A stretch of 64,000 bases of DNA from assembly GCA_945913025.1 (NCBI GenBank), contig CAMECJ010000004.1:1-64000 (forward strand), in the 5' to 3' direction. The DNA is from an uncultured Elusimicrobia bacterium. Its GTDB lineage: Bacteria > Elusimicrobiota > Elusimicrobia > Elusimicrobiales > Elusimicrobiaceae. Position 1 is the stretch's first letter; each line of letters opens with the position of its first letter. Position numbers and translations under genes: made by a program. Below, piece after piece: positions 25 through 30,333 of the stretch. Under the pieces are notes generated by a model. That model ran no database searches and was not told the origin of the DNA. It saw only the letters and a program-made list of their open reading frames with translations.

Positions 25-959
25 CTATCGGCTTCCGGGTGTAGGGAAAGCGGTGTTTAGGTATTGCGTAAGCTGTTTGTGCAATGTTTGTGCCAGTTCC
101 TTGGGACTGATGACCTTGATGTGGGGTAGCCACCGTTTGAGTTGAGGAAGGACCTGTATGAAATTAGCTGTTTTGCACGAAATAAGCAAAGAACCGTCTT
201 TTAGTTCTTTCTCAATTTTTTGGTAGGGGAAAAATTCCACCTCTTTAAAATATCCGGCAATGGGCGGGGCAATTTTTAGTTTAATTTCTACATTTTGCTC
301 ACTATCAAACCAAATATTGGGCGACTGCGCCAATTTGTCATCAATAGAAATAGGGGCAAAGGTTTGAGTATGTGGGCGCACTTGTTCAATACGCCCAAGT
401 GAAAATTTCATGAAGGTATTCCAACTATTAAGGGTAATTAAGTACCAAAATCCGTCAAATAAGGCTATTTTTAAGGGGCGTACCTGGCGGATCCACGCCC
501 GTTTGGTTTGGGATTTATAATAAACATCTATATACTGATGTTTCAAAATAGATTGTTCCAATTTTTCCAACATAGCGGGCGAAATGCTGTGCCACATACG
601 CGGCATTTTAATAAAGTAGATATCTAGGGATTAGGGCGCACAAATTGCTCGGTCAGCCGTTTAAAACTGGCGTTCCAGTTGGGACCCAAAGATTCGGCCA
701 ATTGCCCCCGGTAAGGGCAAGGAGTGCTTTATCCCGCGCGGAAAGCGGCATTTTGCGCAACGAAAACCCTTCCGCAAAACCGTATCTACCAGCGGCGATT
801 TCTGCTAACGGGAAACCGGCACGTTCTATTTCGTGCAAATCGCGCTGCAAAGTGCGTGCAGAAAAGCCGAGCTCTTTAGCCTCTTGCGTAAGCACAATAC
901 AACTTGTTAAGTAGATACAAAATACGGGTAAATTTATGCAAAGTTGCGGGTTTAATCAT
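25..959 (-). pseudogene. WYL-domain transcriptional regulator, frameshifted
   Basis: The longest intact piece (25-606, 193 aa) is a WYL domain, with a core reading RQVRPLKIALFDGFWYLI followed by FSLGRIEQVRP, the usual ligand-sensing C-terminal part of DeoR/HTH-WYL regulators. Upstream on the same strand a second piece (about 650-895) encodes a helix-turn-helix (FSARTLQRDLHEIE) and a third begins at an ATG at 959 (MIKPATLHKFTRILYLL). The three pieces lie in different frames, and a TAG stop near 632 separates the linker from the WYL part, so a normal regulator of about 300 residues has been broken by at least two or three frameshifts. The gene diverges from the EcsC-family gene at 1101, which may once have been its target. 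The family assignment is good; loss of function is inferred. Confidence 0.75.
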
Positions 960-3454: not shown

Positions 3455-5461
3455 ATGAGCGATTACATACAATTAACCGCACGGGAATTAGGCCTAAAAT
3501 GGCTGGAGTTAATAGGCCGTCCTATGCCGCCAATCGGGCGTAGTTTAATTATTAAAAACCTGTTATGGTATGGACAAGCCAAGCGTGAGAAACTTTCTCC
3601 GCTTGGCTTTTTTCATGAAGTAGCCCAAGCAGCTAAGGGAGCAGACAAGCGTCCCAAAGCCACTCTTGAGATAGGCTCAAAACTAATCCGTTCCTACCAA
3701 GGGCTTAAATACGAAGTAGAAATCGTTGCCAATGGGTATCTATATGAGAATACACTCTACAAAAGCCTATCCGGTGTAGCCAAAGCCATTATGGGGAAAA
3801 ACTGGAACGGAAATGTATTCTTTGGAGTGAAAAAAATGAGTGATAAAAAAATACGTTGTGCTATCTATACCCGCAAATCAACGGAAGAAGGATTAGAACA
3901 GGAGTTTAATAGTTTACAAGCTCAACGGGAAGCGTGTGAGGCCTATATTAAGAACCAAAAGCATGAGAATTGGCAGTTATTGCCTACGGAATATGATGAC
4001 GGTGGGTATTCAGGCGGCAACATGGAAAGGCCGGCTTTAAAAAGGCTACTCCAAGATGTGCACAACGGACTTGTTGATATTATCGTTGTTTACAAGATAG
4101 ACCGCTTAACCCGCAGTCTAATGGATTTTAGCAAGATTGTAGAAGTGTTAGATAAGCATAATGCCTCGTTTGTATCTATTACCCAGCATTTTAATACCAC
4201 TACCAGTATGGGGCGGCTAACGATCAATATGTTATTATCCTTTGCCTAATTTGAGCGCGAAGTAACAGGGGAGCGTATAAGGGATAAGATAAGTGCCAGT
4301 AAAAAGAAAGGTATGTGGATGGGTGGCAAACCGCCATTGGGATATTACCGTAAAGATAAAAAAATATATCCGGATGAGGAAAAAGTAAAACTCGTTACTA
4401 CTATATTCCAAAAGTATGTTGAACTGAAAAGTACCACACTCCTAAAAGAGTGGTTAAATAAACAGGGACATAATATATCCGTAGGGAACTTGAATTGTAT
4501 CCTACGTAATAAAGCATATATTGGTTTAGTAGGGCATAAAGGAACATGGTATCCGGGGGAACACCAAGGCATAATTTCCCAAGAGTTGTTTGAGCAAGTC
4601 CAAGCAGTAATGGCAGATAATCGTATCAACCTCCAACATTATGCCCCTAGCAAAAGCCTTTTGTCGGGCAAGTTATATGACGATAAAGATAACGCCATGA
4701 ACCCCAGTTGGAGTACGGGTAGCGGCGGTAAAAAATATCGCTATTATGTCAGCCAAGCCATTATCCGCAAAGAGCCAAGCAAACTAGGTACAATCGGCAA
4801 AGTATCTCTACCGCAACTGGAAAACTTTATAGATAGTTGGTTTAAGCACTTCTTACGCGAAAAGCCAAAAATACACCCATATATCCAACAGTTTGGCGTG
4901 AGCAAACAAAAAGAAATTATCAAACGGTTGACAGAATATCCGATGACACGAGATATAGAGAAAGCTTTAATCAAATGCATTAAATTAAATCCCAACAGGA
5001 TAGAAATTACACTACATACGGAACAAGTAACCGAACTGCTCAACGCTATTTATGAAAATAGAGAAATGGCTATTCTTCAATCTGAGAAACTAAAACTTGA
5101 AACCACTTATACGGAAACATATCGTATAGGAACGGTAGCCAATGGGGCCAAGGTTATTGTGGGGCAATTTGTCCAACCTACAAAACAACCCAACAAGGAA
5201 CTCATCACAATCTTACACCAATCCTATAGTTGGCATCAAGATATATTAGACGGTAAGACTACCCAAGAAATAGCCAATAGAGAGAAAGTATGCGTGCAGT
5301 ATGTGCGCCGGATCCTTAATTTGAGTTTTTTATTGCCCAAAATCGTACGCTCTATCCTAAACGGCACGCAACCTGTCGATTGTACGCTCAAGAAGTTGAT
5401 TTGGATTGACGCCCTTGATTGGCCAAAACAAAATAAGCTATTTTTTGATAAATTTTTTTAG
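3455..5461 (+). pseudogene. DUF2924-large serine recombinase, broken by a nonsense codon (copy 1)
   Basis: Residues 1-128 match the DUF2924 domain found beside resolvases in mobile elements. The rest is a large serine recombinase: catalytic serine in YTRKSTEEG, then DDGGYSGGNMERP and VVYKIDRLTR, followed by the long recombinase and C-terminal DNA-binding parts to 5461. An in-frame TAA at 4247-4249 stands where the second copy of this module (30714-32331) has CAA, in LLSFA-Q-FERE, so the protein is truncated inside the catalytic domain. DUF2924 and recombinase are fused here because a run before ATGAGTGAT has seven A; the second copy has six A and two overlapping ORFs. The start has an AGGAGAG site. 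Probably an inactive integrase unless suppressed. Confidence 0.85.
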
Positions 5462-5622: not shown

Positions 5623-5874
5623 TGGTATTGGTACCCAAAGTGGGACAGTAAATAAGAGACTATGCCTGATGATTAGTTAACCATTTTGATACACATCTAT
5701 GCCATATTCGCTGCTGATTTCTCTCACCGATTTGCCTTGCTCTCTTAGCTCCAATATCTGCCGCTTAAACTCTTTTGTGTACTGCTTTCGTTTCATAACC
5801 ATTATTCCGCTTCTCCTATACAACCTATTATACTTTTACCCCTATTCACTGTCCCACTTTGTGTACCAATACCA
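5623..5874 (-). mobile_element. 252-bp non-autonomous IS3-family derivative (copy 1)
   Basis: The ends are imperfect inverted repeats beginning TGGTATTGGTAC and ending with its complement, followed inside by GGGACAGTAAATAAG at one end. The interior, read on the minus strand, holds only the first codons of an IS3 OrfA (ATGGTTATGAAACGAAAG) joined to the last codons of OrfB. A copy of exactly the same length and junction lies in opposite orientation at 12762-13013, and a longer relative at 16056-17081. The shared junction shows that one deleted form was copied, as in a MITE. No clear target duplication is visible here. Confidence 0.8.
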
Positions 5875-6082: not shown

Positions 6083-6345
6083 TTATAGTGCAGACGACTG
6101 CACAGTTATAAGGTTCCCCAAATCCTAACAAAAGACAGAGATTGTATCTTGATAGATACCGACGTAAGAATAGGATAGGGGGACTTCCGAAAATAACGGA
6201 AATTCCATTAAGAGTGTACGAGGGACGAGCCCGTTGACTACACAGCAACCTACCAAAGGGCAAGGTGCTAAAGCTCGAACACAATGGGAGCTAGAACAAA
6301 TTTGAAGTATGTTAGAACCCATTGGAGACAATGGGTTCTTTTTTT
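6083..6345 (+). ncRNA. Candidate structured leader RNA
   Basis: The gene-free 5875-6385 stretch contains a dense series of perfect local helices: GTGCAG/CTGCAC (6088-6093 with 6098-6103, tetraloop ACGA), TCCCC plus ATCCTA pairing with TAGGAT plus GGGGA (6115-6127 with 6171-6183) enclosing GTATCT/AGATAC (6144-6159), TTCCG/CGGAA (6185-6201), GTGTA/TACAC (6214-6218 with 6239-6243) around GGG/CCC, AGCA-CCT with AGG-TGCT (6244-6251 with 6263-6269), and AGCTC/GAGCT (6272-6292). They end in a factor-independent terminator at 6314-6345. I do not recognise the class; it does not show the conserved parts of RNase P, tmRNA or 6S RNA. It could be a riboswitch-like leader, a stand-alone RNA or a mobile-element RNA. 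Inference from helices only. Confidence 0.5.
6314..6345 (+). terminator. Factor-independent terminator in leader
   Basis: AGAACCCATTG (6314-6324) and CAATGGGTTCT (6329-6339) form an 11-bp perfect stem with a GAGA tetraloop, followed by a run of seven T (6339-6345). It lies 41 nt before the first micro-ORF of the downstream operon. Confidence 0.8.
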
Positions 6346-6385
6346 ATCCACCTCTCCAATGGGAAATCCAAAGGAGAGGTTTTTT
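6318..6385 (+). promoter_or_regulatory. Switchable hairpins: antiterminator and Shine-Dalgarno sequester
   Basis: CCCATTGGAGA (6318-6328), half of the terminator, is perfectly complementary over 11 bp to TCTCCAATGGG (6353-6363), so an antiterminator can replace the terminator. That second strand overlaps ACCTCTCC (6350-6357), which pairs over 8 bp with GGAGAGGT (6373-6380), the ribosome site of the ORF at 6386. Forming the antiterminator therefore frees the ribosome site, while terminator formation allows sequestration. This coupling of transcription and translation control is seen in riboswitches and attenuators; the ligand or trigger is unknown. Confidence 0.6.
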
Positions 6386-6511
6386 ATGGCAAAAAAATGT
6401 AAGCAAAATCGCAATGTAACAGTATGGGTGGTTCCTTATACGCAGTTAGAGACAGAACCGATGAAGGAAGATTCTTTTGGATATAACGATTGGGACATTT
6501 ATCACGGATAG
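6386..6511 (+). CDS. 41-residue peptide, operon leader ORF
   Basis: The short ORF starts at an ATG 6-7 nt after an AAAGGAGAGG ribosome site and encodes a 41-residue peptide with a basic N-terminus (MAKKCKQNRN), a hydrophobic stretch (VTVWVVPY) and an acidic C-terminal half. I recognise no family. It may be a leader peptide, a small regulator, or the first product of the operon that continues to 12588. Its ribosome site lies inside a hairpin described separately. The strong site makes translation likely; function is unknown. Confidence 0.5.
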   Translation: MAKKCKQNRNVTVWVVPYTQLETEPMKEDSFGYNDWDIYHG

Positions 6512-6523
6512 GGACGAGATTTT

Positions 6524-6637
6524 ATGACGAAATTCTATATATGCGCAAAGAAACACAAGAAATATAGCGAATTCTATTTGCTACTGCGGGATATCTATCA
6601 GTGGCTTAGCAAGAATAGGACTTTTAGACATTTTTAG
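6524..6637 (+). CDS. Possible 37-residue basic peptide
   Basis: An ATG at 6524 follows a GGGACGAG stretch and opens a 37-residue frame beginning MTKFYICAKKHKKY that is basic and aromatic-rich and ends 12 nt before the ClpX-like gene. It fills the gap between the 41-residue ORF and the ATPase gene on the same strand. The ribosome site is poor and no family is recognised, so it may be spurious. Confidence 0.3.
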   Translation: MTKFYICAKKHKKYSEFYLLLRDIYQWLSKNRTFRHF

Positions 6638-6649
6638 AGTGAGGTAAAT

Positions 6650-8011
6650 ATGAACAATATAAAGAAACAAATAACAAAATACACTTCTCGTGCACAATTG
6701 GTAGAAGACATTATTAAATGGAACGATTTGGCAGGTCCTGCTACCAAAGAGGCCCAGTTCGTGCAAACGCTCAAGGAGATTCACGCACGACTTTTGCGCT
6801 CTAATGCAGATAAATTCCCATTAGTGGAGTTTATTCAAAAGCATAAATTATCACAGGCGGAAGTATTTTTACTGCTTCGCCTGTCGGTACTGGATTTGCA
6901 ACGGGTAATGGTTAGCAGTTTTTTTCAAGTGCCGTATTTGCTCGAAAAGGGCCAAATATTCGGTCAACGTGCGGAATTGGTGTCTATTTTGTTAGACCGC
7001 AAAAGTGTGTTATTTACGGAAGGGATTTTTACCTATTGCGGTGGCAAAATAGAACTTAAAAAGAATTTTTTAGCGGCTCCAGCAGTCAAAAAACGAAAAA
7101 CTAAGAAACGCACGCTAAATCCTCAGCGCGTGCTGAGCGAACTTAATAAGTATGTAATTGGGCAGGATGAAGCCAAGAAACAGGTTGTAGCAGGCGTTTT
7201 TGAGCATTTAATCAAGTGTGCTAATGCCAAAGACGGCCAAGTATTTAACAAGAGTAATATTTTTATCAGCGGACCAACGGGTTGCGGAAAGAGTTATATG
7301 TGCGAGTGTTTGGCTAAAATCTTGAAAATACCTTTCTTGCACGTAGATGCTACTAAATATACGCAAACGGGGTATCACGGCCAAAATGTAGGGGATATAT
7401 TAAAACCCTTATATGATTTTATTAAGGAGAAAAACAAACTGCCGGTTTCTATTGTGTTTATTGATGAAATAGATAAACTGCGGGAAGGATGCGAAAGATG
7501 GGGCGTATCTTCCACCAATGTGCAAGCAGAGTTACTGCGGCTCATAGAGGCATCTCACTATAACTTAGAAAAAAGAAGTTCTTTGGTGGATTGCGATATT
7601 TCCCAAGTCTTGTTTATCGTTGGCGGGGCGTTTGAAAACTTGCAAGTAAAACACGCTGATAAAACGGTCGGTTTTGCCTACACACCCGTTGTGCAAGAGC
7701 GTACCCTTACCGCAGATGATTATATCGGCTATGGGATGATGCCCGAACTAATTGGGCGATTTTCGTACTTTGTGCAGTTAAAGGGGCTTGAAAAAGACGA
7801 TTTACGCCAAATTCTACTCAACCCGCATAATGGACCTTTGCAACAATATAAAAACCTGTTGCATACCTCTACACGTGTGTCTTCTGAAGTGGTGGAAACG
7901 CTCGTCAATAGCGCGTATGAGCGGCACTTGGGGGCCCGCGGGCTTCATCAGCAAGTGGGGCAACTCTTTCAGGATGCATTTTTGGAAAACAAGGTCCAAA
8001 TTGAAATATAA
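6650..8011 (+). CDS. ClpX-like AAA+ ATPase with N-terminal helical/winged-helix domain
   Basis: The C-terminal 280 residues of this 453-residue protein match the ClpX/HslU branch of AAA+ unfoldases: entry segment LNKYVIGQDEAKK, Walker A GPTGCGKS (about 206), a HVDATKYTQTGYHG segment, Walker B IVFIDEIDK (about 268) and sensor 2 GARGL (about 427). The ClpX zinc-binding domain is absent. Instead residues 1-150 form a separate helical domain ending in a lysine-rich linker; part of it (VFLLLRL, then YLLEKGQIF) recurs in the next gene product. No IGF-type ClpP-docking loop is evident, so it may remodel proteins without a protease. The start has a GAGGT site. It opens a tightly spaced same-strand operon to 12588. 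Confidence 0.8.
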   Translation: MNNIKKQITKYTSRAQLVEDIIKWNDLAGPATKEAQFVQTLKEIHARLLRSNADKFPLVEFIQKHKLSQAEVFLLLRLSVLDLQRVMVSSFFQVPYLLEKGQIFGQRAELVSILLDRKSVLFTEGIFTYCGGKIELKKNFLAAPAVKKRKTKKRTLNPQRVLSELNKYVIGQDEAKKQVVAGVFEHLIKCANAKDGQVFNKSNIFISGPTGCGKSYMCECLAKILKIPFLHVDATKYTQTGYHGQNVGDILKPLYDFIKEKNKLPVSIVFIDEIDKLREGCERWGVSSTNVQAELLRLIEASHYNLEKRSSLVDCDISQVLFIVGGAFENLQVKHADKTVGFAYTPVVQERTLTADDYIGYGMMPELIGRFSYFVQLKGLEKDDLRQILLNPHNGPLQQYKNLLHTSTRVSSEVVETLVNSAYERHLGARGLHQQVGQLFQDAFLENKVQIEI

Positions 8012-8020
8012 GGAGTGTTT

Positions 8021-8539
8021 ATGAATATACACGTACAATTAGCACAGTTTTTAGAGGAGTTGGACCAGCAACGCAAGGCAATGTTAAGTCATTTGCCCGT
8101 GGAAGGATATAAGACCACGGAAGAGTTATTTAAGGCCTGTTCTTTGTGGGTGGGGTTAGAGCGTGGCCCGTGGGCTGAAAACGGCTACAAAGAGTACTTT
8201 TTGAACATTGTAGCCAATTTAAAACACGAAAACAGCAGCCATCTGGCCTTATCGGTGTTTCTCAAAAATAACTCTTGTAGTGATGTGCAACTGTTTCTAC
8301 TACTTCGGTTACTTACTAAAACGGCTACCGATGCCTGCGCGTGGGATAACCGTATGGAAACGTATTTGGATAGAGGGCAAGCCATTTTTACGCAGGAAGA
8401 ACTGGACACGCTATTTAAAGAGGCGCAAGAAACGTACCCAATCGGAAATATCTGCCAATACAATAAGCGCAGTATTTATCTCAATCGGCAGTTGGTACAC
8501 GTCAAACAATTTTTAGGGGTACTCCCTAAATCGAACTAA
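8021..8539 (+). CDS. Partner protein sharing the ATPase N-terminal domain
   Basis: This 172-residue soluble protein starts at an ATG placed 5 nt after AAGGAG; a GTG at 8015 overlaps that site and is unlikely. Residues about 85-165 resemble the N-terminal domain of the preceding ClpX-like ATPase: VQLFLLLRLL against VFLLLRLSVLD, YLDRGQAIFTQEELDTLF against YLLEKGQIFGQRAELVSIL, and a closing IYLNRQLV against IELKKNFL. It appears to be a stand-alone version of that domain, perhaps an adaptor or a subunit that binds the same partner. It follows the ATPase by 9 nt. No known family name can be given. Confidence 0.6.
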   Translation: MNIHVQLAQFLEELDQQRKAMLSHLPVEGYKTTEELFKACSLWVGLERGPWAENGYKEYFLNIVANLKHENSSHLALSVFLKNNSCSDVQLFLLLRLLTKTATDACAWDNRMETYLDRGQAIFTQEELDTLFKEAQETYPIGNICQYNKRSIYLNRQLVHVKQFLGVLPKSN

Positions 8540-8553
8540 AAAGGAGGTTGTAA

Positions 8554-8883
8554 ATGAAAAAAGCAGTATTGTTAGTTGTTCCGTTATTATTAACTGCGTG
8601 TGCGGCTAATATTAACCATAATGTAGCAACGGTACAGGGTAAAACCTACTTGGTAGAGACGAAAAATAATAATTTCTTCCGGCTCTTCCAATGGAGTAAA
8701 CCCAGTACATTTAAGCTCATAGATGGCGAAAAGCTAGACCAGGAAGCCCTCCAAGCGTACATTGATAGTGTCTCCAAGGAGTGTAAAAAAACAGCGCGGA
8801 TTCGTTCGTTTAATACGTCCGCTCCCGCTGAATATGATTCCGAGAAATTCTATGACTGTATGATGGATAAACTCAAAAAATAA
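8554..8883 (+). CDS. Small lipoprotein
   Basis: The 109-residue product has a classic lipoprotein signal: MKK, a hydrophobic run, and the lipobox LLTAC with the lipidated cysteine at residue 16. The mature part is hydrophilic, with two further cysteines (SKEC and FYDC) that could form a disulfide in the periplasm. An AGGAGG site precedes the ATG, and the gene lies 14 nt after the previous one. No family is recognised. In this operon it places at least one component at the inner or outer membrane. Confidence 0.7.
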   Translation: MKKAVLLVVPLLLTACAANINHNVATVQGKTYLVETKNNNFFRLFQWSKPSTFKLIDGEKLDQEALQAYIDSVSKECKKTARIRSFNTSAPAEYDSEKFYDCMMDKLKK

Positions 8884-8890
8884 GCAATAG

Positions 8891-8911
8891 GGGCCTAGTG
8901 CACCTAGGCCC
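8891..8911. other. Intercistronic 8-bp hairpin
   Basis: GGGCCTAG and CTAGGCCC pair perfectly around a 5-nt loop between the lipoprotein and LemA-like genes. There is no T-run, so it is more likely an mRNA-processing or stabilising hairpin than a terminator. Confidence 0.4.
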
Positions 8912-8939
8912 TGTACTTGCAAACGAAAGGAGAATGAAA

Positions 8940-9437
8940 ATGACAGTAACAATGGTAGTTGTTTTATTAGTCGCAGTAGTAGCACTTGGGTATTTCATTT
9001 CCGTGAACAATACGGAAATCCGCCTTCGCAATTTGGTCAAAGCGCAACAAGAAATATGTGAAGCCAACTTTGACAAGATGTGGAAGGTCATTAAGCAAAT
9101 CACGCACGTATCCGATACGTACTTAGAGGCGTTTAAGGAGATATACCCCAAACTTATTTCCGGACGTTACCAAAGCAAGGATATGCGGTTTATTGTAGAG
9201 CATAACCCGCCGTTAGACACGTCTGTTCTGCGTCAACTGGCCACGGCTATTGAAATCAACCGTGAACAGTTTTTCAGTCATCAACGGTTATTAGTGGCAC
9301 GACATAACGAACACAAAACCTTTATCCAAAGTTTCCCCGCGTGTATTTTGTTGCCTAACGCACAGGAAATCAAAATTACGGTCATTAAGTCGGACCATAC
9401 AGCCGACGTATATGCCACCGGCAAGGAGAACATTTAA
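8940..9437 (+). CDS. LemA-like membrane-anchored protein
   Basis: The 165-residue protein has one N-terminal membrane helix (VTMVVVLLVAVVALGYFISV) followed by a long alpha-helical domain of LemA type: the segment NNTEIRLRNLVKAQQE then FDKMWKVIKQI matches the first LemA helix, where the family has NxLVxxxxxxxxxxDxxxxRR-like spacing. LemA proteins expose a helical bundle outside or beside the cytoplasmic membrane and have no assigned enzymatic activity. I chose the second of two ATGs because it sits 6 nt after AGGAG. The stop codon overlaps the next start (TAATG), indicating translational coupling to the TPR membrane protein. Confidence 0.65.
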   Translation: MTVTMVVVLLVAVVALGYFISVNNTEIRLRNLVKAQQEICEANFDKMWKVIKQITHVSDTYLEAFKEIYPKLISGRYQSKDMRFIVEHNPPLDTSVLRQLATAIEINREQFFSHQRLLVARHNEHKTFIQSFPACILLPNAQEIKITVIKSDHTADVYATGKENI

Positions 9438-11020
9438 TGTCTATATCGTTCTTATATGCGCTTGGTTTTTTGCTAGTCGTGCCGCACGTAATAGGCTATG
9501 AACCCTTGGGTATATTCGGGATAATCATAGGTTGCCTAGGGGCGTGGATAGTTATTGGTTTTGCCAATGCGTGTGAATCGGGCAAAACGGAAGACGAAGA
9601 AATCTTGGGCACGTACGTGACCGAGGCCCGCTATTACGAACCGTGGACGGAAAAAATCAAACACGAAGACGAAGAAACGGGCGAAGTAACGTACGAAGAA
9701 GTAGAGCATGACGAACAATGGGAAATCACCGTAGCCGAAGGGGACACTTTTGACATTGATGAAGAAGAATATAAAGAACTTGTCTCCCTATTTGGCAACG
9801 AAGGAGAGGAAGAGGCCGACCACGAGTGGGAAGCGGAGGGAGAAATTATAGACCCCGGGTATAGCACGTATACCACGTGGCCCGGTACGTATGAAACCGC
9901 AAGTTACGAGTATGTATACCGTTCATACAAAAATCCCACCTTACGTTCTTCCAACATATATGCAAGCGAAAAATTGGACGAACAAACCATTAAAACGTAT
10001 CACTTGCAGTCCTATGGCCGCAAAGGATTATACGGTACGGTACAGGGAGAAGACGCGGAGCAATTAGAAGATGAAATTCGGGATTATAACTGTTGGAGTC
10101 GTGAAAAAAACATAAAACTAAATTTCATCTTACTGGAAAATGCCACCACTACGCAAGGAATCTATTGGCAGCAATATTGGCAAAACGGTAAGCGCAACAC
10201 GATAAATGCCGTTGTGGGCGTAACCCCTGAGCATAAAATTGAGTGGGCCCACGTATTTGGTTGGCAGAACGAAGCCGTGTGTATTAAACTGCGCGATTTT
10301 ATCGTGGGATTAGATACGCTCGCGGATATTACGTCTCATTTTAGCCAAGTGAAAGAAATCTTAAAAGAAAACTACCAACTGCCTAATTTGAGCGAATATG
10401 ATTTGGGGAAAGGGCCTTTTCCTCTCAAAGGGGCTCTAATTGCTCTAACGATATGCTTGGGGCTATTTTGCGGACTTTTTGGCAGGCCGCCCCAATACAA
10501 TATCCGTGCCCAGAAGAATGTAGCGCAAAGGCAATACTCACTAGCCAAAAGTAACTTTCAGGAATATCTTCACCGCGTGCCGGATGATGTATATGCGCTT
10601 AATAATTTAGGCGTGATTTACTGGAGAGAGAATAATTTGGAAGAGGCCGAAAAACTATTTTCGCAAGCATTGCGCAATTCGTATTCTCTAAGCAGAGGAG
10701 ATGTCAAAGACCTCTATGTAAATCGTGGCATTTGTTACAAGGATTTGAAACAAAACAAGAAGGCTATTGCCGATATGAAAAAAGCCATAGAATACGAGGA
10801 ATACGGCACTAAGTCTTATTGCGCTTTATACAACTTATACAACATGCTTGGTTATAAAAAATCAATGTGGGCTTTGCAGAAAGAGTATAACAACCGTAGG
10901 CCAGGTCGGCTTAAAGAGGATTGTAAAGATTATAGAGATTCTTTGACCTATATATACGATGGCGCAGATATGTTCACTGGGCGCGGTTTTGAGCGGATAT
11001 TGAGGAAGATTTTTGACTAG
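9437..11020 (+). CDS. Membrane protein with acidic loop and C-terminal TPR repeats
   Basis: The 527-residue protein begins with two hydrophobic helices (about residues 3-20 and 25-43). A very acidic region follows (about 50-150, rich in E and D, for example EDEETGEVTYEEVEHDE), then a mixed domain to about 330, another membrane helix (ALIALTICLGLFCGLFG, about 335-351) and a C-terminal TPR domain (about 365-480) with units such as DVYALNNLGVIYWRENNLEE and KDLYVNRGICYKDLKQN. It is coupled by TAATG overlap to the LemA-like gene, so the two are probably made together at the membrane. No catalytic motif is seen; a scaffold or sensor role is inferred. Confidence 0.65.
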   Translation: MSISFLYALGFLLVVPHVIGYEPLGIFGIIIGCLGAWIVIGFANACESGKTEDEEILGTYVTEARYYEPWTEKIKHEDEETGEVTYEEVEHDEQWEITVAEGDTFDIDEEEYKELVSLFGNEGEEEADHEWEAEGEIIDPGYSTYTTWPGTYETASYEYVYRSYKNPTLRSSNIYASEKLDEQTIKTYHLQSYGRKGLYGTVQGEDAEQLEDEIRDYNCWSREKNIKLNFILLENATTTQGIYWQQYWQNGKRNTINAVVGVTPEHKIEWAHVFGWQNEAVCIKLRDFIVGLDTLADITSHFSQVKEILKENYQLPNLSEYDLGKGPFPLKGALIALTICLGLFCGLFGRPPQYNIRAQKNVAQRQYSLAKSNFQEYLHRVPDDVYALNNLGVIYWRENNLEEAEKLFSQALRNSYSLSRGDVKDLYVNRGICYKDLKQNKKAIADMKKAIEYEEYGTKSYCALYNLYNMLGYKKSMWALQKEYNNRRPGRLKEDCKDYRDSLTYIYDGADMFTGRGFERILRKIFD

Positions 11021-11034
11021 AGGAGGAACGAACT

Positions 11035-11826
11035 ATGTATCAAGTAAAAGTATCTGTGGATGAACAAAGAAGTTATGTATCTTTTTATGAGGAAGATACT
11101 CTTCTCTACCGTACCGTAGTGCAGAGTCCCTATCATATTACGGAGCAGGACCCCGTTGTGCAGCGTAAAAAATTCAAGGAACACCGAACCTGTGTGCCGC
11201 CACAACATAAAGTGTGGGTTCCAGGTAAGATTAACGTGCATCCGTGGTTTAATAACTTATTTAAGCAAGTGGATAAACTAGTAAGTTATATGCCGTTTCG
11301 AGATAAAGAAATTGAGTATTCTATTCACACGCCTTTTAGTAACCACGTAACCGATAAACGCTACCAAGTCACGGAAGGATTTAAGACGGAAGATTTGAAG
11401 GACGGCCCCTATGCCTTGCCTACCCGTGCTATTAAAAGTATTTCTACGCAATTTGGCCCTTATCCGCTCGTTCCCACGCAAGAGGCTACGTGGAAAATTA
11501 ACGTGCGTACAGCCCAAACACGTAAAAATGTGATTTATTTGCGGGCCCACTATAGCCGTAAGCACGTATTATCTTTTGTGGCAGAATTATTAAAACGCAG
11601 GAATTGTGCCGTAAAATTACGCCCCAGTTTTACAATGGAAAAATACAAACTGGAAATTTGTTCTTCCGATTGGTTGTTTGGATTAGAAAGAGAAGAGTGG
11701 GCCTGTTTGGATATTTATTTACAAAACCCGCAAGCATTTCAAAAAACCTGGTATCAACGGTGGTTTGAGAAAAAAAGAAGCAAAGGCAGTTATGTGGATT
11801 CTATTTGGAGTTGTTTTAAAAAATGA
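11035..11826 (+). CDS. Protein of unknown function in the LemA/ClpX-like operon
   Basis: The 263-residue, basic, cytoplasmic-looking protein has no signal peptide or membrane segment. It contains several conserved-looking aromatic and basic segments (KVWVPGKINVHPWFNNLF, then RAHYSRKHVLSFVAELLKRR) but none that I can assign to a family. A strong GAGGAGG site precedes the ATG by 7 nt, the gene follows the TPR protein by 14 nt, and it precedes the amidohydrolase-like gene by 18 nt. Position alone ties it to the operon. Confidence 0.6.
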   Translation: MYQVKVSVDEQRSYVSFYEEDTLLYRTVVQSPYHITEQDPVVQRKKFKEHRTCVPPQHKVWVPGKINVHPWFNNLFKQVDKLVSYMPFRDKEIEYSIHTPFSNHVTDKRYQVTEGFKTEDLKDGPYALPTRAIKSISTQFGPYPLVPTQEATWKINVRTAQTRKNVIYLRAHYSRKHVLSFVAELLKRRNCAVKLRPSFTMEKYKLEICSSDWLFGLEREEWACLDIYLQNPQAFQKTWYQRWFEKKRSKGSYVDSIWSCFKK

Positions 11827-11844
11827 TTAGAAGAGCGAAAGAAA

Positions 11845-12588
11845 ATGAATCAATTTGAAAATATTGTGGCTTGGATGCCGCATACAGGGTTATATTTGCC
11901 TAATGTAGATAATAGGCCCGAATTTGATATTTTACGGCGAGATTCTTTGCTTTTGGCAGATGAACAGGTGGATAGATTGTATTCCTTTCTGCCAAACAAG
12001 ATTACAAGTGATTATTCCCGTTTTGTAGTGGATTTAGAGCGGTATTTAGACAATTCCAAAGCACCGATGGCACAAAAGGGAATGGGGTACTTGTATAACC
12101 GCTTAATAGATGGCAAGTCATTTGATAGAAGTATCTTCGGAGATGCTTCCTATTTTACCGAGTATTATAAACACAAACACGCCCAATTAAAGCAGGCAAT
12201 AGAACGCATTGGGAATGGGGCTATTTTGCTTGATTTACACAGTTTTAACCCCGTTCCCTTGCCGTGTGATATAGATAAAAGACCAAACCGTCCGGATATA
12301 TGCTTGGGCTTTAATGAGGATGAAACAAAACTAGAAGATTCTATCTTGCAAACCCTACAGGAACATTTTGAGGATAATGGCTTCAAAGTGGCCTTTAATA
12401 CGCCTTTTAGCGGAACAATGACCACTGACACACAAACCAAATACAAGTCCTTGATGATAGAGATTAACAAAAAATGTTACTTAGAAAATCACGTGCTTAA
12501 AAAAGATATGTATAAACTATCTTACGTACTAAAGGAAGCCGTTTTGTTACTACAGCCCCAACCTAAAAGAAAATTTAGCTGGTTATGA
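11845..12588 (+). CDS. N-formylglutamate amidohydrolase family protein
   Basis: The 247-residue protein matches the N-formylglutamate amidohydrolase (FGase) family: an early PHTG segment, DYSRFVVDLERY, GMGYLYNRLIDG, the metal-site segment LLDLHSFNPVPLP, RPDICLGFN, FNTPFSGTM and a closing LMIEINKKCYL with conserved Glu. The characterised enzymes hydrolyse N-formylglutamate in histidine degradation and use a zinc ion. No histidine-utilisation genes are nearby, so here the fold probably acts on another amide, perhaps of a peptide or cell-wall fragment; that is inference. It is the last gene of the operon and is followed by about 170 bp with no recognisable feature, then the second 252-bp IS derivative. 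Confidence 0.75.
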   Translation: MNQFENIVAWMPHTGLYLPNVDNRPEFDILRRDSLLLADEQVDRLYSFLPNKITSDYSRFVVDLERYLDNSKAPMAQKGMGYLYNRLIDGKSFDRSIFGDASYFTEYYKHKHAQLKQAIERIGNGAILLDLHSFNPVPLPCDIDKRPNRPDICLGFNEDETKLEDSILQTLQEHFEDNGFKVAFNTPFSGTMTTDTQTKYKSLMIEINKKCYLENHVLKKDMYKLSYVLKEAVLLLQPQPKRKFSWL

Positions 12589-12761: not shown

Positions 12762-13013
12762 TGGATTTGGTACAAAATCTGGGACAGTAAATAAGGGTAA
12801 AAGTATAATAGGTTGTATAGGAGAAGCGGAACAATGGTTATGAAACGAAAGCAGTATACAAAAGAGTTTAAACGACAGATATTGGAGCTAAGAGAGCAAG
12901 GCAAATCCGTGAGTGAACGCATCAGCGAATATGGCATCGATGTTTACCAAAATAGTTAACGCATCATCAGGCATAGTCTCTTATTTACTGTCCCACTTTG
13001 TGTACCAATACCA
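12762..13013 (+). mobile_element. 252-bp non-autonomous IS3-family derivative (copy 2)
   Basis: It begins TGGATTTGGTACAAAATC and ends GTGTACCAATACCA, with GGGACAGTAAATAAG and its complement just inside each end. The interior has the start of an IS3 OrfA at 12834 and the tail of OrfB, joined at the same point as in the inverted copy at 5623-5874 and of identical total length. Together the two copies bracket the 6.9-kb operon region. No convincing target-site duplication is seen. Confidence 0.8.
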
Positions 13014-17833: not shown

Positions 17834-18379
17834 ATGAAGTCTCTTTATATTATTTTGGATACCAGTGCGAGCATGGATCCATTTGATAATGCTAAGCAGT
17901 CTATCAAAGAATTAGTGGCGGAGGATCGATTGCAGATGCTTGGCACTATTTGCATAGTAGAGATGTCTACCCATCCCAAGGTGCTTTTTAATCTGTCTCC
18001 TTCATCAGTATCTGGTGATATACGCCAGAAAATTTTGGAGAAAATTAATCCACTGCAACCCAACGAAAAAGCAAATGTGAAAGAAACTTTTGCTTTAACA
18101 GCTAACTTATTGAAGAATCGATCTAACAATACTGATCCCACATATGTGTTGCTTATAAGCGACGGATTTACGGATAACCCAATTACCATTTGCGATTTTA
18201 GATCATATTTGGAATGTTTTCAAGAGCTTGGTCCAGAGGTAATTTTTATTTCGTTTCCGTGTAATCGTGGTTTTCATTACAAAAATCTAAGCGCTTTTGC
18301 AAAAGATAAACCGAATCACTTATTTGCTCCGGAAGGAATTTCTGACGTATTAAAATTTATTTTCAATAAGGAGGATTGA
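17834..18379 (+). CDS. vWA domain protein, TerY-like (first)
   Basis: The 181-residue protein is a single von Willebrand factor A domain. It starts with YIILDTSASMDPF, the DxSxS part of the MIDAS metal site, and has later strands with VLLISDGFTDNP (the MIDAS Asp) and VIFISFPCNRG. TerY-type vWA proteins are intracellular metal-dependent protein-binding modules encoded next to PP2C phosphatases and kinases. A weak AAGGAG site precedes the ATG. It is the first gene of the operon and ends 1 nt before the next start. Upstream (17611-17833) is AT-rich with a TTGACT box near 17731 but no convincing -10. Confidence 0.8.
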   Translation: MKSLYIILDTSASMDPFDNAKQSIKELVAEDRLQMLGTICIVEMSTHPKVLFNLSPSSVSGDIRQKILEKINPLQPNEKANVKETFALTANLLKNRSNNTDPTYVLLISDGFTDNPITICDFRSYLECFQELGPEVIFISFPCNRGFHYKNLSAFAKDKPNHLFAPEGISDVLKFIFNKED

Positions 18380-18380
18380 T

Positions 18381-19070
18381 ATGTCTTTAGGCGATTTTAC
18401 ATTGGTTCAAGAACGCAGTTTGCCAATATTTTTAATGGTAGATACCAGCAAAAGTATGACTATAAATAATAGAATGGGGCGGGTCAACGCTGCGATCCAA
18501 ACCATGTTGGATGAATTGCGTAATGATATGTCCAACGTACAAGAAAATTTAGTGACCTATCAAATGGGCATTATTGCGTTTGGTGGCGGGAAGGCCACAC
18601 TTCAACCTTTGCAAGATGTGCGGACTATAGAGTTTGCGCCTTTACATGCCGCCGGAGATACTCCATTGGGAGATGCATTAGAGCTGTTACTGGACCAAGT
18701 TAAAAAATTAGACAAGCGCGCTTATGCTCCCTGCATCGTATTGCTTAGTGATGGCAATCCATGGATACAAGGAGACCCAAATTATTTTGAAAAAGTTTGT
18801 TCAAAATTAAAAGAGGTTCAAAAGGAAAAACGGATTGCCCGCAGTCAGCTTTTTTCGGTAAAAGTAGGGCCGGTAAGTCCAAAGCAGGACTGTTTTTTGC
18901 TTGATTTTGTGCAAAAGAATACCCATCATTTTATAGATGCAGCCGAAGTAAGTAAAATCAAGGAAGCTTTTGAACTGATTACGTTATCTGTTACACAGCA
19001 AGCGGCTACGATAGCATTTCCATCCCCCAAAGAGGAAGATGCAGATGAAGAATCCATACGTATTCGGTAG
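18381..19070 (+). CDS. vWA domain protein, TerY-like (second)
   Basis: The 229-residue protein has a complete MIDAS set: DTSKSM near residue 17-22, the Thr in AGDTPLGDALELL, and the Asp in IVLLSDGNPW. It resembles TerY more closely than the first vWA protein and has a short acidic tail (PKEEDADEESIRIR). In TerY-P triads the vWA protein is thought to be the substrate or adaptor controlled by the linked kinase and phosphatase. The gene is spaced 1 nt after the first vWA gene and 6 nt before the phosphatase gene. Confidence 0.85.
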   Translation: MSLGDFTLVQERSLPIFLMVDTSKSMTINNRMGRVNAAIQTMLDELRNDMSNVQENLVTYQMGIIAFGGGKATLQPLQDVRTIEFAPLHAAGDTPLGDALELLLDQVKKLDKRAYAPCIVLLSDGNPWIQGDPNYFEKVCSKLKEVQKEKRIARSQLFSVKVGPVSPKQDCFLLDFVQKNTHHFIDAAEVSKIKEAFELITLSVTQQAATIAFPSPKEEDADEESIRIR

Positions 19071-19076
19071 ATTTCT

Positions 19077-19793
19077 ATGGGGTTTAAGTATATAGATACA
19101 AACAGAGTGTTAGGAGGAAATACAGTCATTGGGGCTTCCCATGTTTCATTACAGAAGCCTAATCAGGACAGTTTGCATTTTGGTTCATATACTAGCGGAT
19201 TTTGCTTTGTGGCAGTGGCAGATGGAGTGGGGAGTTGTTGTTATTCACAAGTGGGCTCGCGTTGTGCTGTGCGCGTCATTGGGCAACTTTGCAGACGAGG
19301 GCCACAGTGGTTAAATGATGAGAGCCAAGGAGTACGCTTACGAAATTATATTATTTCTCATTGGCAGCGTGGTATCGGGACACAGGCGGATCTATATGCT
19401 ACTACCCTTAATTTTGTCATTTTAGGTAAAAATTGTATGTGGGTAGGGCAAATAGGAGATGGACTTGTTTTGGTTAAAACGAGGCGTAAATTTGTTGTGT
19501 TGGAAGAAACAACCGTGCAGCCTCCTTATACGTTCGCATTGGGAGGTGTAGGCGTGGCAGAGAATTTCCGATTATGTGTGTTAAAGCCTTGTAAACAAAT
19601 GAGTGTATTTTTATGTTCGGATGGTATCGGCAGGGTGTTAAATCCTGCGTTGTTTCAAAAGTTTTTAGCATATATACGAAAGCTATTGTTTCGCAATCGA
19701 AGCAAAGGACAAAAAGAACTAAAAGAGTGGTTATTCTCTTTGGGAAAATATAGTCAAGACGATAAAACATTTGGGGTATTGTTATGCCGTTAG
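19077..19793 (+). CDS. PP2C-family Ser/Thr protein phosphatase
   Basis: The 238-residue protein carries the PP2C metal-binding motifs in order: KPNQDSLHF (first Asp), VAVADGVGSC (DGxG), IGDGLVLV, FLCSDGIGRVL and a closing DDKTFGVLL. These enzymes remove phosphate from Ser/Thr with two metal ions. It is short, a bare catalytic domain with no sensor. The last 10 nt overlap the kinase gene, so phosphatase and kinase are translationally coupled and probably act on the same target, presumably one of the vWA proteins or the ATPases of the operon. Confidence 0.85.
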   Translation: MGFKYIDTNRVLGGNTVIGASHVSLQKPNQDSLHFGSYTSGFCFVAVADGVGSCCYSQVGSRCAVRVIGQLCRRGPQWLNDESQGVRLRNYIISHWQRGIGTQADLYATTLNFVILGKNCMWVGQIGDGLVLVKTRRKFVVLEETTVQPPYTFALGGVGVAENFRLCVLKPCKQMSVFLCSDGIGRVLNPALFQKFLAYIRKLLFRNRSKGQKELKEWLFSLGKYSQDDKTFGVLLCR

Positions 19794-21286
19794 AAGATGC
19801 AGTGACAGAAACAGGGGAAAGATATAAATTAGACCGCGAACTGGGGAGAGGCGGGCAGGGAAATGTGTTTATCTGCTCCACGGGTGATTTGGTGAAAATT
19901 TGTAAGCACGCAACTAAGTTGAGTTTGCGTAATTTAATTCGGGAATTTCAGTTGATGCCCGAGCAAGTAAAACGATTTTTTATCGTTCCGCAACAACTGG
20001 TTAAACAAGGGTCTCAATGGGGATATTTAATGCCGTATCAGGCGAACTGTGTATTGCTGAAAGAGGCACTTGCACCATTAGAACCTCAGGAGTGGGAAAA
20101 TTGGCATATTCAACCACGGGACTTAAAACATCGTTTTTTAATTAGTTATCGTATTGCACAAGCATTAGCTGCTTTGCATGGTTATCGATATATATACCGA
20201 GATCTTTCAGCGCGCAATATTCTGATTGCTGAAGATGCAACCAATACCTTTGTTCGTATTATAGATGTGGATAATATTGCGCCCGTTGGACAATCAAAGA
20301 TTCTATTGATTACAAAGTCGTATAGTGCCCCAGAACTGATGCGCGCTGGACAACATACGTCTACTCGCTCTGTTGCCTATCATAATTATAATACGGATAA
20401 TTATTCCTTGGCTGTTATTCTTTTTAAGTTTTTGTTGGGAAAATCTCATCCATTGATAGGAGATTTGGTATCGGCTGATGACGTGGAACGCGAAGCGAAC
20501 GCCTATTTGGGAAAAGCGAGGTATATCTTGGATGATCCTAACCAGGAAAGTATTAGTAAGGAAGGCGGGCGTAAAATGAAAACATTAGCAGATGCCCTTA
20601 TTCCTTATCATTTGCAACAGTTATTTCATAAAACTTTTGTGGAAGGATTAAATCTACCAGATGAACGACCGACTGCATTGGATTTTACTTCTGCTTGCTT
20701 TGATGCGGCTAACCAAGTATATTTCTGTCCACATTGTAACTGTGGATATGTATTGCAGATACCTCAAGATATCGCTCCGTTAGGAGGTCATACTTCTCAA
20801 CAGGTGAATGCTCCTATTTCCTTATTCCCTCACAGTTGCCCGCATTGTGGTAACTCTACCCCGCGTAAAGCGTTGGTGATAGGGGACATGGTGTATCCTA
20901 AGATTGCAAGAAAACGTCCCGAAGATAAAACTGTGTACGATAATAAACCACATAAATGGTTCGGTCGTCAGTTGCGTTATGTATTCCCTATACAGAATTC
21001 AGATATCGTGTTGGCAAAAAAATATATTAAACCGGTGTCTCCTACGGAACAATTTGAAGAAGGAGTTGGTTTGTTTGTACGGGATGGAAAGGTATATTTT
21101 AATCGTGCTCAATCTGTTTTCAATTTATATTATCCAGAAATTCAAATTATTAATGGAAAACAGCGTGAGGTTTGGCATACGGTTTCACATAATGAACTCT
21201 TACCGATAAATAAAAATATTTACTTTGAACAATATACGAATAATTATAAATATGCAGAACGTTTCATGAAGGTCATAGAGGAGTAA
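19784..21286 (+). CDS. Atypical protein kinase with zinc ribbon
   Basis: The first 300 residues of this 500-residue protein form a kinase domain: glycine loop LGRGGQGNVF (about 18-27), a Lys in LVKICK, catalytic loop YRDLSARNIL (Tyr in place of the usual His) and metal-site segment RIIDVDNIAP (DVD in place of DFG). The catalytic Asp and Asn are present. Two CPHC-type pairs (FCPHCNCGY and CPHCGN, about 315-365) form a zinc ribbon, and the C-terminal 130 residues are unassigned. It is coupled to the PP2C gene upstream and lies 4 nt before the helicase gene. TerY-P kinases often carry extra C-terminal modules. Confidence 0.85.
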   Translation: MPLEDAVTETGERYKLDRELGRGGQGNVFICSTGDLVKICKHATKLSLRNLIREFQLMPEQVKRFFIVPQQLVKQGSQWGYLMPYQANCVLLKEALAPLEPQEWENWHIQPRDLKHRFLISYRIAQALAALHGYRYIYRDLSARNILIAEDATNTFVRIIDVDNIAPVGQSKILLITKSYSAPELMRAGQHTSTRSVAYHNYNTDNYSLAVILFKFLLGKSHPLIGDLVSADDVEREANAYLGKARYILDDPNQESISKEGGRKMKTLADALIPYHLQQLFHKTFVEGLNLPDERPTALDFTSACFDAANQVYFCPHCNCGYVLQIPQDIAPLGGHTSQQVNAPISLFPHSCPHCGNSTPRKALVIGDMVYPKIARKRPEDKTVYDNKPHKWFGRQLRYVFPIQNSDIVLAKKYIKPVSPTEQFEEGVGLFVRDGKVYFNRAQSVFNLYYPEIQIINGKQREVWHTVSHNELLPINKNIYFEQYTNNYKYAERFMKVIEE

Positions 21287-21290
21287 CCAT

Positions 21291-24200
21291 ATGTTGCAGA
21301 TGCAAAAAAGAGATATACAGAATTTACTTCGCGATAAAAATTGGGAAAGTTCTTTAATTATTTGCTTACAGGAAGAAGTGGATAATTTGGAAGGGAAAAT
21401 AGTTTATATTGAAAAGCTGAATGAGCAGTTTTTTCTAGTACGCAACGGTCAGGAATATCTTATTTCAACGATTGAAGCCGGAGAGTCGATAGCTGAAAGA
21501 TTTGCTGGGGATTACGAGGCTTTATGGATAGTAGACTCCAAACTGGAAGGGGCTATGTGCCGTTATCGGGTTAATTTGTCTTTTTTTGATGGAGGAATGC
21601 GGATTTCCGCTCCTAAGCAAATATATATTACGGCAGAGCGTTTAAATTGGATATTTAAACAGATATCGGAAGTGCCCCCATCAAGTTCACTAGAAGATAA
21701 ATTAAAAATTTTGCATAATCTGTTTTTTTATGATAATGTTTGTTTCTTTTATTATAGCGGTCATAGAGGTACATTATATTTAATTGGCAAAGATTGCAAA
21801 ATGCTAAAATTGGAAAGATATCGGAATGCCAATGTATGGAAAATTATGGAGATGTGTTCTTCTGGGAGTGTAGAAGGAGCGACTCCAAATGGTGAAAATG
21901 TTGTTGTTTGTCATGAAAATATTCCTTTTTTATTGGCGCAACATAACATAGAGTTGCCTATTGCTACAAATGATGAAAATAGTTTTTTGAATTTCTTAGA
22001 TGAATACGAAAGCATAGAAAGGGCTCTTTTGGAAGAACGCAAAATACAGGCTGGTTGTTTGGAATTTAACGGTGTAGAAGATATTGATTCACAAAAGCAA
22101 ATTAAATTTTTAATCAGTAATATGAGAAAAGCCGCGTTAGATGAATTTAGTGAAAATAGATCCATAGAAGTATTAAAATCAGAAACACCTTCCAATAAAC
22201 CCGCCAAAAATATATTTTTGGGGCGTATTAGCCGTTTTGAATGGAAAGATAAAGAATTATATGTAGATTATGACGATAATGAAGATAGGGCACGAGAATT
22301 TTTACAAGCGAATATTATGTCCGGGAAACTGGGAATTTGCTGGACGGGAGACGATTATATTCACAAACGCCGCGAGCGCGCATTAACCCGCTTTAGCCAA
22401 GAGAAAGACACTTCATTAAGAGAAGTGCTTTGTTTAAAGAAAAGAGGTTTGGATGTACATGCGTTAGATCATCCTATTACGGAACGCGTACAAAGTAAAT
22501 TCCCCGATATTTCCTTTAATGACCTCCAACGTAAGGCGGTAGCAGCGGCGGTGGGTACGGATGATATCGCTGTTATTTGGGGTCCTCCCGGTACCGGGAA
22601 AACAACAGTTATTAAAGCCATTATAGAACGCTTTTTTGAATATAATAATACCCGTTTGGAGCACAAAGAAAAACCAGTATTGATTACCAGTTATCAAAAT
22701 GATGCGGTAGACAATGTGATTGTTTCGCGCGGAATAGAAATCCCTGCTTATCGTATTGGAAAAACGGGTACCAATTTATTTAGCGCATGGCAAGATGCCA
22801 TAAAAGAGCAAATGGAGAAACAATTAGGTGTGAAACCAGACTATAAACCTTGGATAGATAAGTTTGATTCTGCGTGCCGCAGACCGCAACATGAAAAAAT
22901 CAATTTATTAAAGCAATTTATGGAAAGTCCTCTTTTTGGCGAGTTATTGCAGGAATTACAGCATAAGATTCGGCAGCTTGCAAATAATGAACCTAATATC
23001 GCTAGCAGTGTATTGGAATCTCAACGTTTAACACCTCTTGCTTTCGCTGATGACGGACGAGCTCGTTTAAATGATTTGCTACGCTTGTTAATGGGGGGCG
23101 GAATCCTATTAACCAACGATTTTCTAGCGGATGTAACGGATGAAATTGGTACTGAAACTCCAATAACAAAAGATAAATTTTTGCTGTGGCTAAATTCACT
23201 TGCCGAAAAACTGGAAGATAAGGACGAGATTGCGTATGAAACGTACCGCAAGATAGTGTTAAATTTGTTGGTTAATTTAGAACAGGAAGATAAAGAGAAA
23301 CAAGTAGATGATTGCTTAAAAGAAATTCGACGCATTTTGTGGCAACAAGGTATTGACTATCCTAAGAGAGCGGCATTAGCTTTGGTACAATACGATTTTG
23401 TTTCTCAAATAGAAAATATTGAATCTGCAAAAGTACTTATTAACACTTATACAAATACCATGGCAGGAACTTGCCAAAAGGTGGGGATGCAGAGCCGCAA
23501 TTCCGAAGAAGTTTTACCTACTAGTTATCAAATGGTTATTGTAGACGAAACTTCTCGTGCTAATGTATTGGATTTACTGATTCCGCTGTCAATGGGTAAA
23601 AAAGTAATCTTAGTGGGCGATTTCTTACAGTTACCGCCTTTGGTAGATGATGAAGTAAAGAGTATGCTTAGACAAAGATTCCCAGAACGAAAAGAATTGA
23701 TAGATAAAACATTTTTCCAGCGGTTGTATGAATTCCTAAAACAGCATGCGCCTGAAAAATGTGTTGCTCTTACTGCACAGCGGCGCATGCATCCGGATAT
23801 AGGAAATTTTGCCAGTGAGCAATTCTATAAACCGGAAGGCCTTGAGTTATCTTCCGATGAAGTAGACTTGGGAAAAAAGCGTCATGGCTTAACGATGTCC
23901 AACGGCGAAGCTATGTTCAAAGGCCAAGCTGTGGCGTGGGTAAATATTCCCTTTGCAAGCGGAGCCGAAACTAATCAAGTTGACCAAAATGCTCAGTCCG
24001 AGAATCAAAAGTCAAACCGTTCATTATATCGTCAGATTGAGATAGAGCAAATCCGATCATGGGTAGATTCTATACGTATCCAAAACCCTAATAAAGAAAT
24101 CGGAATTATTACTTTTTACAAAAAACAAGCCGAACTGTTAAAAGAGCGGTTTAAAGATTTGGAAGGACTGGAACAACTCAAAATAGGTACGGTTGATGCT

Positions 24201-24443
24201 TTCCAAGGCAAGGAATTTGATGTTGTATTCCTGTCATGTGTGCGTAGTAATGAACAGCAGAATGTGGGATTTTTAAAAGATAGAGCGCGTTTATGCGTGG
24301 CATTTACACGTGCCAAACAATTGATGGTTGTGGTGGGGGATAAAGATACACTATGTAACGAGCATGCTCAGCCCCAAACGGCTCCTTATATTTTCCACCA
24401 ATTCTTAACATTGTGTCAAAGCAAGGGGAGTTACCATGAGTGA
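21291..24443 (+). CDS. Superfamily 1 (Upf1/DNA2-like) helicase
   Basis: The 1050-residue protein has a 420-residue N-terminal region without an assigned domain. A full SF1 motor follows: Walker A GPPGTGKTT (about 430), motif Ia TSYQNDAVDNV, Walker B VIVDETSRANVLD (about 748), motif III VGDFLQLPP (about 775), AQRRMHP (about 828), IGIITFYKKQ, GTVDAFQGKEFD (about 967) and CVAFTRAK (about 1003). About 300 residues separate motifs I and II, holding a large 1B/1C-type insertion as in Upf1-like enzymes. Such helicases unwind RNA or DNA 5' to 3'. No nuclease motif is visible. The stop overlaps the next start by 8 nt. Confidence 0.85.
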   Translation: MLQMQKRDIQNLLRDKNWESSLIICLQEEVDNLEGKIVYIEKLNEQFFLVRNGQEYLISTIEAGESIAERFAGDYEALWIVDSKLEGAMCRYRVNLSFFDGGMRISAPKQIYITAERLNWIFKQISEVPPSSSLEDKLKILHNLFFYDNVCFFYYSGHRGTLYLIGKDCKMLKLERYRNANVWKIMEMCSSGSVEGATPNGENVVVCHENIPFLLAQHNIELPIATNDENSFLNFLDEYESIERALLEERKIQAGCLEFNGVEDIDSQKQIKFLISNMRKAALDEFSENRSIEVLKSETPSNKPAKNIFLGRISRFEWKDKELYVDYDDNEDRAREFLQANIMSGKLGICWTGDDYIHKRRERALTRFSQEKDTSLREVLCLKKRGLDVHALDHPITERVQSKFPDISFNDLQRKAVAAAVGTDDIAVIWGPPGTGKTTVIKAIIERFFEYNNTRLEHKEKPVLITSYQNDAVDNVIVSRGIEIPAYRIGKTGTNLFSAWQDAIKEQMEKQLGVKPDYKPWIDKFDSACRRPQHEKINLLKQFMESPLFGELLQELQHKIRQLANNEPNIASSVLESQRLTPLAFADDGRARLNDLLRLLMGGGILLTNDFLADVTDEIGTETPITKDKFLLWLNSLAEKLEDKDEIAYETYRKIVLNLLVNLEQEDKEKQVDDCLKEIRRILWQQGIDYPKRAALALVQYDFVSQIENIESAKVLINTYTNTMAGTCQKVGMQSRNSEEVLPTSYQMVIVDETSRANVLDLLIPLSMGKKVILVGDFLQLPPLVDDEVKSMLRQRFPERKELIDKTFFQRLYEFLKQHAPEKCVALTAQRRMHPDIGNFASEQFYKPEGLELSSDEVDLGKKRHGLTMSNGEAMFKGQAVAWVNIPFASGAETNQVDQNAQSENQKSNRSLYRQIEIEQIRSWVDSIRIQNPNKEIGIITFYKKQAELLKERFKDLEGLEQLKIGTVDAFQGKEFDVVFLSCVRSNEQQNVGFLKDRARLCVAFTRAKQLMVVVGDKDTLCNEHAQPQTAPYIFHQFLTLCQSKGSYHE

Positions 24444-26052: not shown

Positions 26053-26053
26053 T

Positions 26054-28321: not shown

Positions 28322-28339
28322 ACGGAGTGATATCATTAT

Positions 28340-30307: not shown

Positions 30308-30333
30308 AAGCGTGAATGTTTATAGGAGAGAAT

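Follow-up and report, generated by a model that had tools for sequence, protein, structure and literature searches.

A SAM-I riboswitch leader ahead of a mobile operon for a ClpX-like unfoldase and exchangeable membrane proteins in Elusimicrobiaceae

What could join a ClpX-like ATPase, membrane proteins, a lipoprotein and an amidohydrolase in a single operon of an uncultured Elusimicrobia bacterium, and what controls them? The locus lies in a stretch of 64,000 nucleotides (the window), contig C4 of a source genome of 1.76 Mb, and the named records with highly similar loci are rumen and gut Elusimicrobium/Elusimicrobiaceae. The ORF map of the window contig places seven genes, A to G, in tight series, all on the + strand, with intergenic gaps of 9 nt (A-B), 14 nt (B-C), 56 nt (C-D), 14 nt (E-F) and 18 nt (F-G) and a 1-nt overlap, TAATG, at D-E; the compact one-strand operon of the original prediction thus holds, with gaps of -1 to 56 nt. 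The overall interpretation of that prediction, a membrane-coupled remodelling or stress/defence system carried as island cargo, is partly supported here. Its parts list was right for A, C, E and G and passed over the SAM riboswitch, a microprotein, gene F and the homology of B to the N-domain of A, and the overlooked riboswitch is the best clue to the function of the operon.

The leader contains a SAM-I (S box) riboswitch aptamer (6202-6290, +), whose covariance-model match to RF00162 (59.8 bits, E 2.9e-12) exceeds the gathering score of 44.4 bits, and an intrinsic terminator (6314-6346, +), found in leader folds and paired in 99.5% of cells across 18 leaders. As an alternative to the terminator, the 3' strand of the P1 helix (AATGGG) pairs with the terminator 5' arm (CCCATT); this antiterminator was paired in 99.2% of cells of the 18 aligned leaders and showed covariation, with a coordinated exchange of A-U to G-C in five sequences, and P1 itself was 86% paired in the same leaders. 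Both the folds and the pairing across the 18 leaders make P1 mutually exclusive with the antiterminator/terminator arrangement. Displacing the partners by 1 to 3 columns lowered the paired share to 9-58% for the antiterminator and to 38-53% for the other three helices; the shuffle control was modest because most leader pairs are invariant. Furthermore, the eight bases that contact SAM in the SAM-I structure (U7, G11, A45, A46, U57, G58, C59 and U88) were invariant in 18/18 aligned leaders. Judged from these sequences, the leader is very probably a working SAM-I switch. Directly downstream, a hairpin (6350-6380, +; 91.9% of cells paired, 18 leaders) lies over the Shine-Dalgarno sequence GGAGAGG of a microprotein, u (41 aa; 6386-6511, +), and would sequester its ribosome site. 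The conserved end of u, FGYNDWDIYHG, has similar counterparts 5' of A in eight loci. The classic role of SAM riboswitches is the regulation of sulfur metabolism. The present leader shares with the S box its aptamer, ligand-contact bases and terminator/antiterminator platform, but it stands ahead of a mobile unfoldase/membrane operon and not of sulfur metabolism genes, and our search of the open-access literature found no article joining a SAM riboswitch with defence or with Elusimicrobia.

The first large gene behind this switch, A (6650-8011, +), encodes, according to family profiles and alignment, a ClpX-like AAA+ ATPase (NF003745, E 1e-61). It scored 178 bits against the clpX equivalog TIGR00382, not reaching the cut-off of 370.75, and the zinc-binding N-domain found no match in A, which carries a different helical N-domain instead, just as the predicted zinc-domain-free ClpX-like ATPase would have it. 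A has in common with ClpX/ClpXP the AAA+ core, Walker A/B, the GYxG pore loop and an [IV]GF loop of the kind that docks ClpP (V340-G341-F342, its G and F being the same in all 11 sequences compared), and it also keeps the sensor-2 GAR; in contrast to ClpX, it is accessory and riboswitch-controlled and has neither the zinc N-domain nor an RKH-type substrate loop. The loop assignments (VGF as ClpP-docking-like, and the RKH region) are made by analogy with ClpX. ClpP is encoded in the window genome, and a search of 21 Elusimicrobia genomes (the window genome and relatives) found no clpX that passes the curated cut-off; A is therefore no surplus duplicate of a housekeeping ClpX, and standard ClpX may have been lost from the order. 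The window genome also holds a second divergent ClpX-like ATPase (L175 6376-7881, G000:C8), which has an IGF loop and whose N-domain is weakly related; no SAM riboswitch was found there. Gene B (172 aa; 8021-8539, +) is, by homology to the N-terminus of A, a stand-alone paralogue of the A N-domain; its AlphaFold model has a pLDDT of 84.7, and a PDB structure search with the B/N-domain fold returned no match. Relatives of A were absent from the viral contigs searched.

The membrane part of the operon centers on D and E. D (8940-9437, +) is an N-terminal TM protein of PHROG 1383, a family annotated 'virion structural protein', and the LemA identity first proposed for it has to be reduced to a possible remote relationship: D has no Pfam LemA (PF04011) match, the hhalign comparison with the LemA profile gave a probability of 94.5% (E 7.6e-8), and reverse matches to LemA proteins were weak. 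With LemA it shares an N-terminal TM segment followed by a helical domain, but remote profile similarity is the most that links them; two true LemA-family matches occur elsewhere in the same genome. E (9437-11020, +), as seen from profiles and a predicted model, is a membrane protein with a PHROG 2087-type soluble domain and a TPR tail, whose three TM-like segments and TPRs agree with the predicted TPR membrane protein. The E model (pLDDT 86) has phage proteins as structural neighbours (E ~1e-12), and its top PDB matches are TPR-type only; a TPM domain, named on the strength of one structural neighbour, was rejected, since it does not figure among the family matches listed for 32 homologues. 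A plasmid search found no E homologues.

Around this pair stand genes that come and go. C (8554-8883, +) is an optional lipoprotein with the lipobox LLLTAC, in keeping with the initial reading, is without family match in profile searches and occurs also in L022 and L026. F (11035-11826, +), 263 aa of no family, is likewise optional (5/247 phylum genomes). G (11845-12588, +) is the anticipated metal amidohydrolase, an N-formylglutamate-amidohydrolase-like protein (PF05013 FGase, E 1.2e-30) with 44.9 bits against the HutG equivalog TIGR02017, whose cut-off of 278.75 it does not reach; beyond the window it was seen in L022 and as a fragment in L019 only, as an optional passenger. In L007, X297 stands in place of C-D-E; this protein has two TM segments and probably a coiled-coil tail, and is also present in L131 (86% identical). 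In L134 another two-TM protein, M221, follows B. A constant core of regulator, riboswitch, A and B with changing membrane proteins would be, we infer, a pattern like that of conflict systems.

How is the module distributed? A or B was found in 18/340 phylum genomes, belonging to two genera of one family, with A in 17 of the 18 and B alone in one. The order A-(B)-(C)-D-E is kept across the two genera, at identities of 70-96% for D and 53-79% for A. Flanking genes mostly differ between A loci (L025 and L132, at the same site, are exceptions, and some other individual genes are found more than once), and the generally shared neighbour is an HTH regulator just upstream (HTH_11, E 2e-8; WYL, E 0.026, below the Pfam cut-off). 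Varied flanks around a constant unit fit a mobile unit, and the idea of island cargo for membrane-coupled remodelling fits an ATPase unit present in 17 genomes with mostly different flanks. As to the co-occurrence on which a joint system would depend, A, D and E do occur together in two genera, though in one family only; D-E is also found apart from A, in jumbo phages and Bacteroidales, and neither the FGase nor the lipoprotein is a conserved part. A prophage origin was rejected for those A-bearing loci that were read, which adjoin no phage morphogenesis genes. In the window, the inverted IS-derived brackets noted earlier are confirmed as two MITE-like arms (5623-5874 and 12762-13013) of 252 nt and 91% complementarity, both with their own terminal inverted repeats, and the GC content of the operon (41.5%, against 49.8% for the chromosomal part of the window) is consistent with island DNA. 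Two similar recombinase gene sets (3455-5461 and 30316-32331) bracket a larger island containing the operon and the CoCoNuT-like genes described below, and a gene at 25-895 (-), apparently disrupted at ~606-653, encodes a WYL-like HTH regulator.

The riboswitch is similarly patchy. In the genus it occurs in 23/66 genomes (27 matches) and is absent from 43, which does not fit a core regulator; the 23 include every one of the 16 genomes of the genus with A or B. Across the two genera it accompanies A in 17/17 A-bearing genomes, directly 5' at every A-bearing locus checked. Among the 27 riboswitches of the genus, 15 stand ahead of A, one ahead of B alone, one ahead of a shortened X297 module and nine ahead of another uncharacterised gene set, and one, below the cut-off, has no clear target; apparently none has a SAM or methionine gene 3' of it (non-A loci read by eye). 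In a second class of SAM-riboswitch loci (L105 5861-7293; L136, L139-L145), the switch precedes small proteins of ~150 aa of no recognised family and/or a ~300-aa protein starting like 'HPADPLYNSF', with no recognisable metabolic genes.

The neighbourhood of the module includes defence genes in several loci. L020 holds a type III restriction-modification (RM) pair and an AAA/S8-peptidase pair (IetAS-like), L026 SIR2 besides a type III RM pair like that of L020, L027 GmrSD, and L028 and L023 reverse transcriptases (RTs), L023 also an Eco57I-type enzyme. Random windows of the same genomes, counted by eye as were the loci, seemingly hold fewer defence-like genes, yet some (BrxL, RT), so the enrichment is suggestive and not clean. 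At 17834-30253 the window itself carries two vWA genes, a PP2C, a kinase, an SF1 helicase, a weakly wHTH-like protein and a coiled-coil ATPase-like protein matching PADLOC PDC-M26A; this set, 3' of the operon, resembles a CoCoNuT-type system (TerY-P; PMC11090510). Within the operon, a PADLOC scan of A, E and G gave a weak match for A via its ATPase and none for E and G, and hence no system-specific anti-phage protein among the three. Compared with the WYL-regulated defence loci of BrxR/CapW (PMC9122601, PMC9122588), the module likewise has an HTH regulator directly upstream and defence neighbours in several loci, but its WYL match is below the cut-off, its SAM control is at the RNA level, and no recognised defence protein was found among the scanned products of the operon.

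Starting from the switch anatomy, its conservation, the protein families and the patchy distribution in different sites, we propose, at roughly even confidence, a mobile accessory module, (HTH regulator)-SAM-I leader-microprotein-A-B-exchangeable membrane proteins, that mounts a protective response, to stress or phage, induced by low SAM. With ample SAM, as the leader anatomy suggests, the aptamer would close P1, the terminator would form and the operon would be off; when SAM falls, the 3' strand of P1 would pair with the terminator 5' arm and the operon would be transcribed. A would then unfold proteins that its unusual N-domain selects and might pass them to ClpP via the VGF loop, B may serve as its competitor or adaptor, and D-E may form a membrane platform with TM anchors and TPRs. 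Regulation by the SAM riboswitch is well supported by the sequences, and a protective role appears likely; the likeliest purpose would be conditional protection, against stress or phage, under SAM depletion. Scarce methionine could cause the drop in SAM, and so could phages, some of which break SAM down and so escape restriction (PMC7877911). Weighing against this explanation are the confinement of the module to one family, the optional nature of C, F and G, and the modules without D-E.

The strongest competitor, which we regard as possible, is a pure SAM/methionine-starvation module without defence role, in which the unfoldase and membrane complex would remodel membrane proteins or recycle protein under scarce methionine. 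S-box control in 17/17 A-bearing genomes would suit a metabolic signal, and LemA-type proteins are generally envelope-linked; the conserved core, however, has no metabolic enzyme, the module is patchy and mostly at different sites, restriction and RT genes are among its neighbours, and its membrane cargo is exchanged between loci. The protective module that we prefer also admits a bolder, minority form, RNA-gated immunity, which we consider unlikely: a SAM riboswitch guard would sense SAM loss, e.g., by phage SAM-cleaving anti-restriction enzymes, and release an unfoldase and exchangeable membrane effectors, backing SAM-dependent restriction.

The history of D-E raises another thought, namely that phage genes were captured for superinfection exclusion, D-E mimicking a jumbo-phage pair to block related phages and A only maintaining D-E. 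Homologues of the two genes are adjacent in many large phages, including six metagenomic phage contigs; in Bacillus phage G the pair is gp142/gp144, gp142 also being named 'virion structural protein', and in 121Q/PBECO4 the order is E-D, with D annotated 'LEMA protein' and a TelA gene nearby. The phage pairs of PHROG 1383 and 2087 (121Q gp69/gp68, PTm1, Bacillus phage G) match D and E in homology, adjacency and membrane topology, whereas the present E carries a TPR tail and lies with D 3' of a ClpX-like gene. The Prevotella phages Lak-B2 and Lak-A2 (L066, L067) have, ~1 kb 5' of the D homologue and in the same orientation, a ClpX gene with the zinc domain; in Lak-A2 an intein-like insertion interrupts this ClpX gene. 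The ClpX gene of the Lak phages and the 'virion structural protein' annotation of D homologues count in favour of exclusion; 'structural', however, is an annotation without traceable data source. A scan for D in 84,980 species genomes gave 47 loci (for L040, another frame of the ORF list hid that of D), 11 in Elusimicrobiota and the remainder in Bacteroidales or Bacteroidetes plus one Patescibacteria MAG, with E adjoining D 3' in essentially all. In three Bacteroidales loci, read by eye, D-E sits among housekeeping-type genes, and it is therefore not exclusively a phage gene pair; moreover, some modules keep A, B and the riboswitch without D-E. On balance, exclusion by captured phage genes seems improbable. 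Least probable by our estimate, and hardly credible, is that island genes of one lineage were assembled without joint function behind a merely carried leader, for although riboswitch leaders also precede unrelated small genes (9/27 loci) and C, F and G are inconstant, the order held across two genera and the intact ligand-contact bases and switch pairing speak against it.

We know of no system combining a SAM riboswitch, a ClpX-like unfoldase and phage-related membrane proteins. In these bacteria, the SAM riboswitch is accessory and is linked to a mobile unfoldase with exchangeable membrane proteins, and the module supplies a ClpX-type motor to a lineage without detected standard clpX. The operon also offers a bacterial handle on D-E, a pair widespread in jumbo phages.
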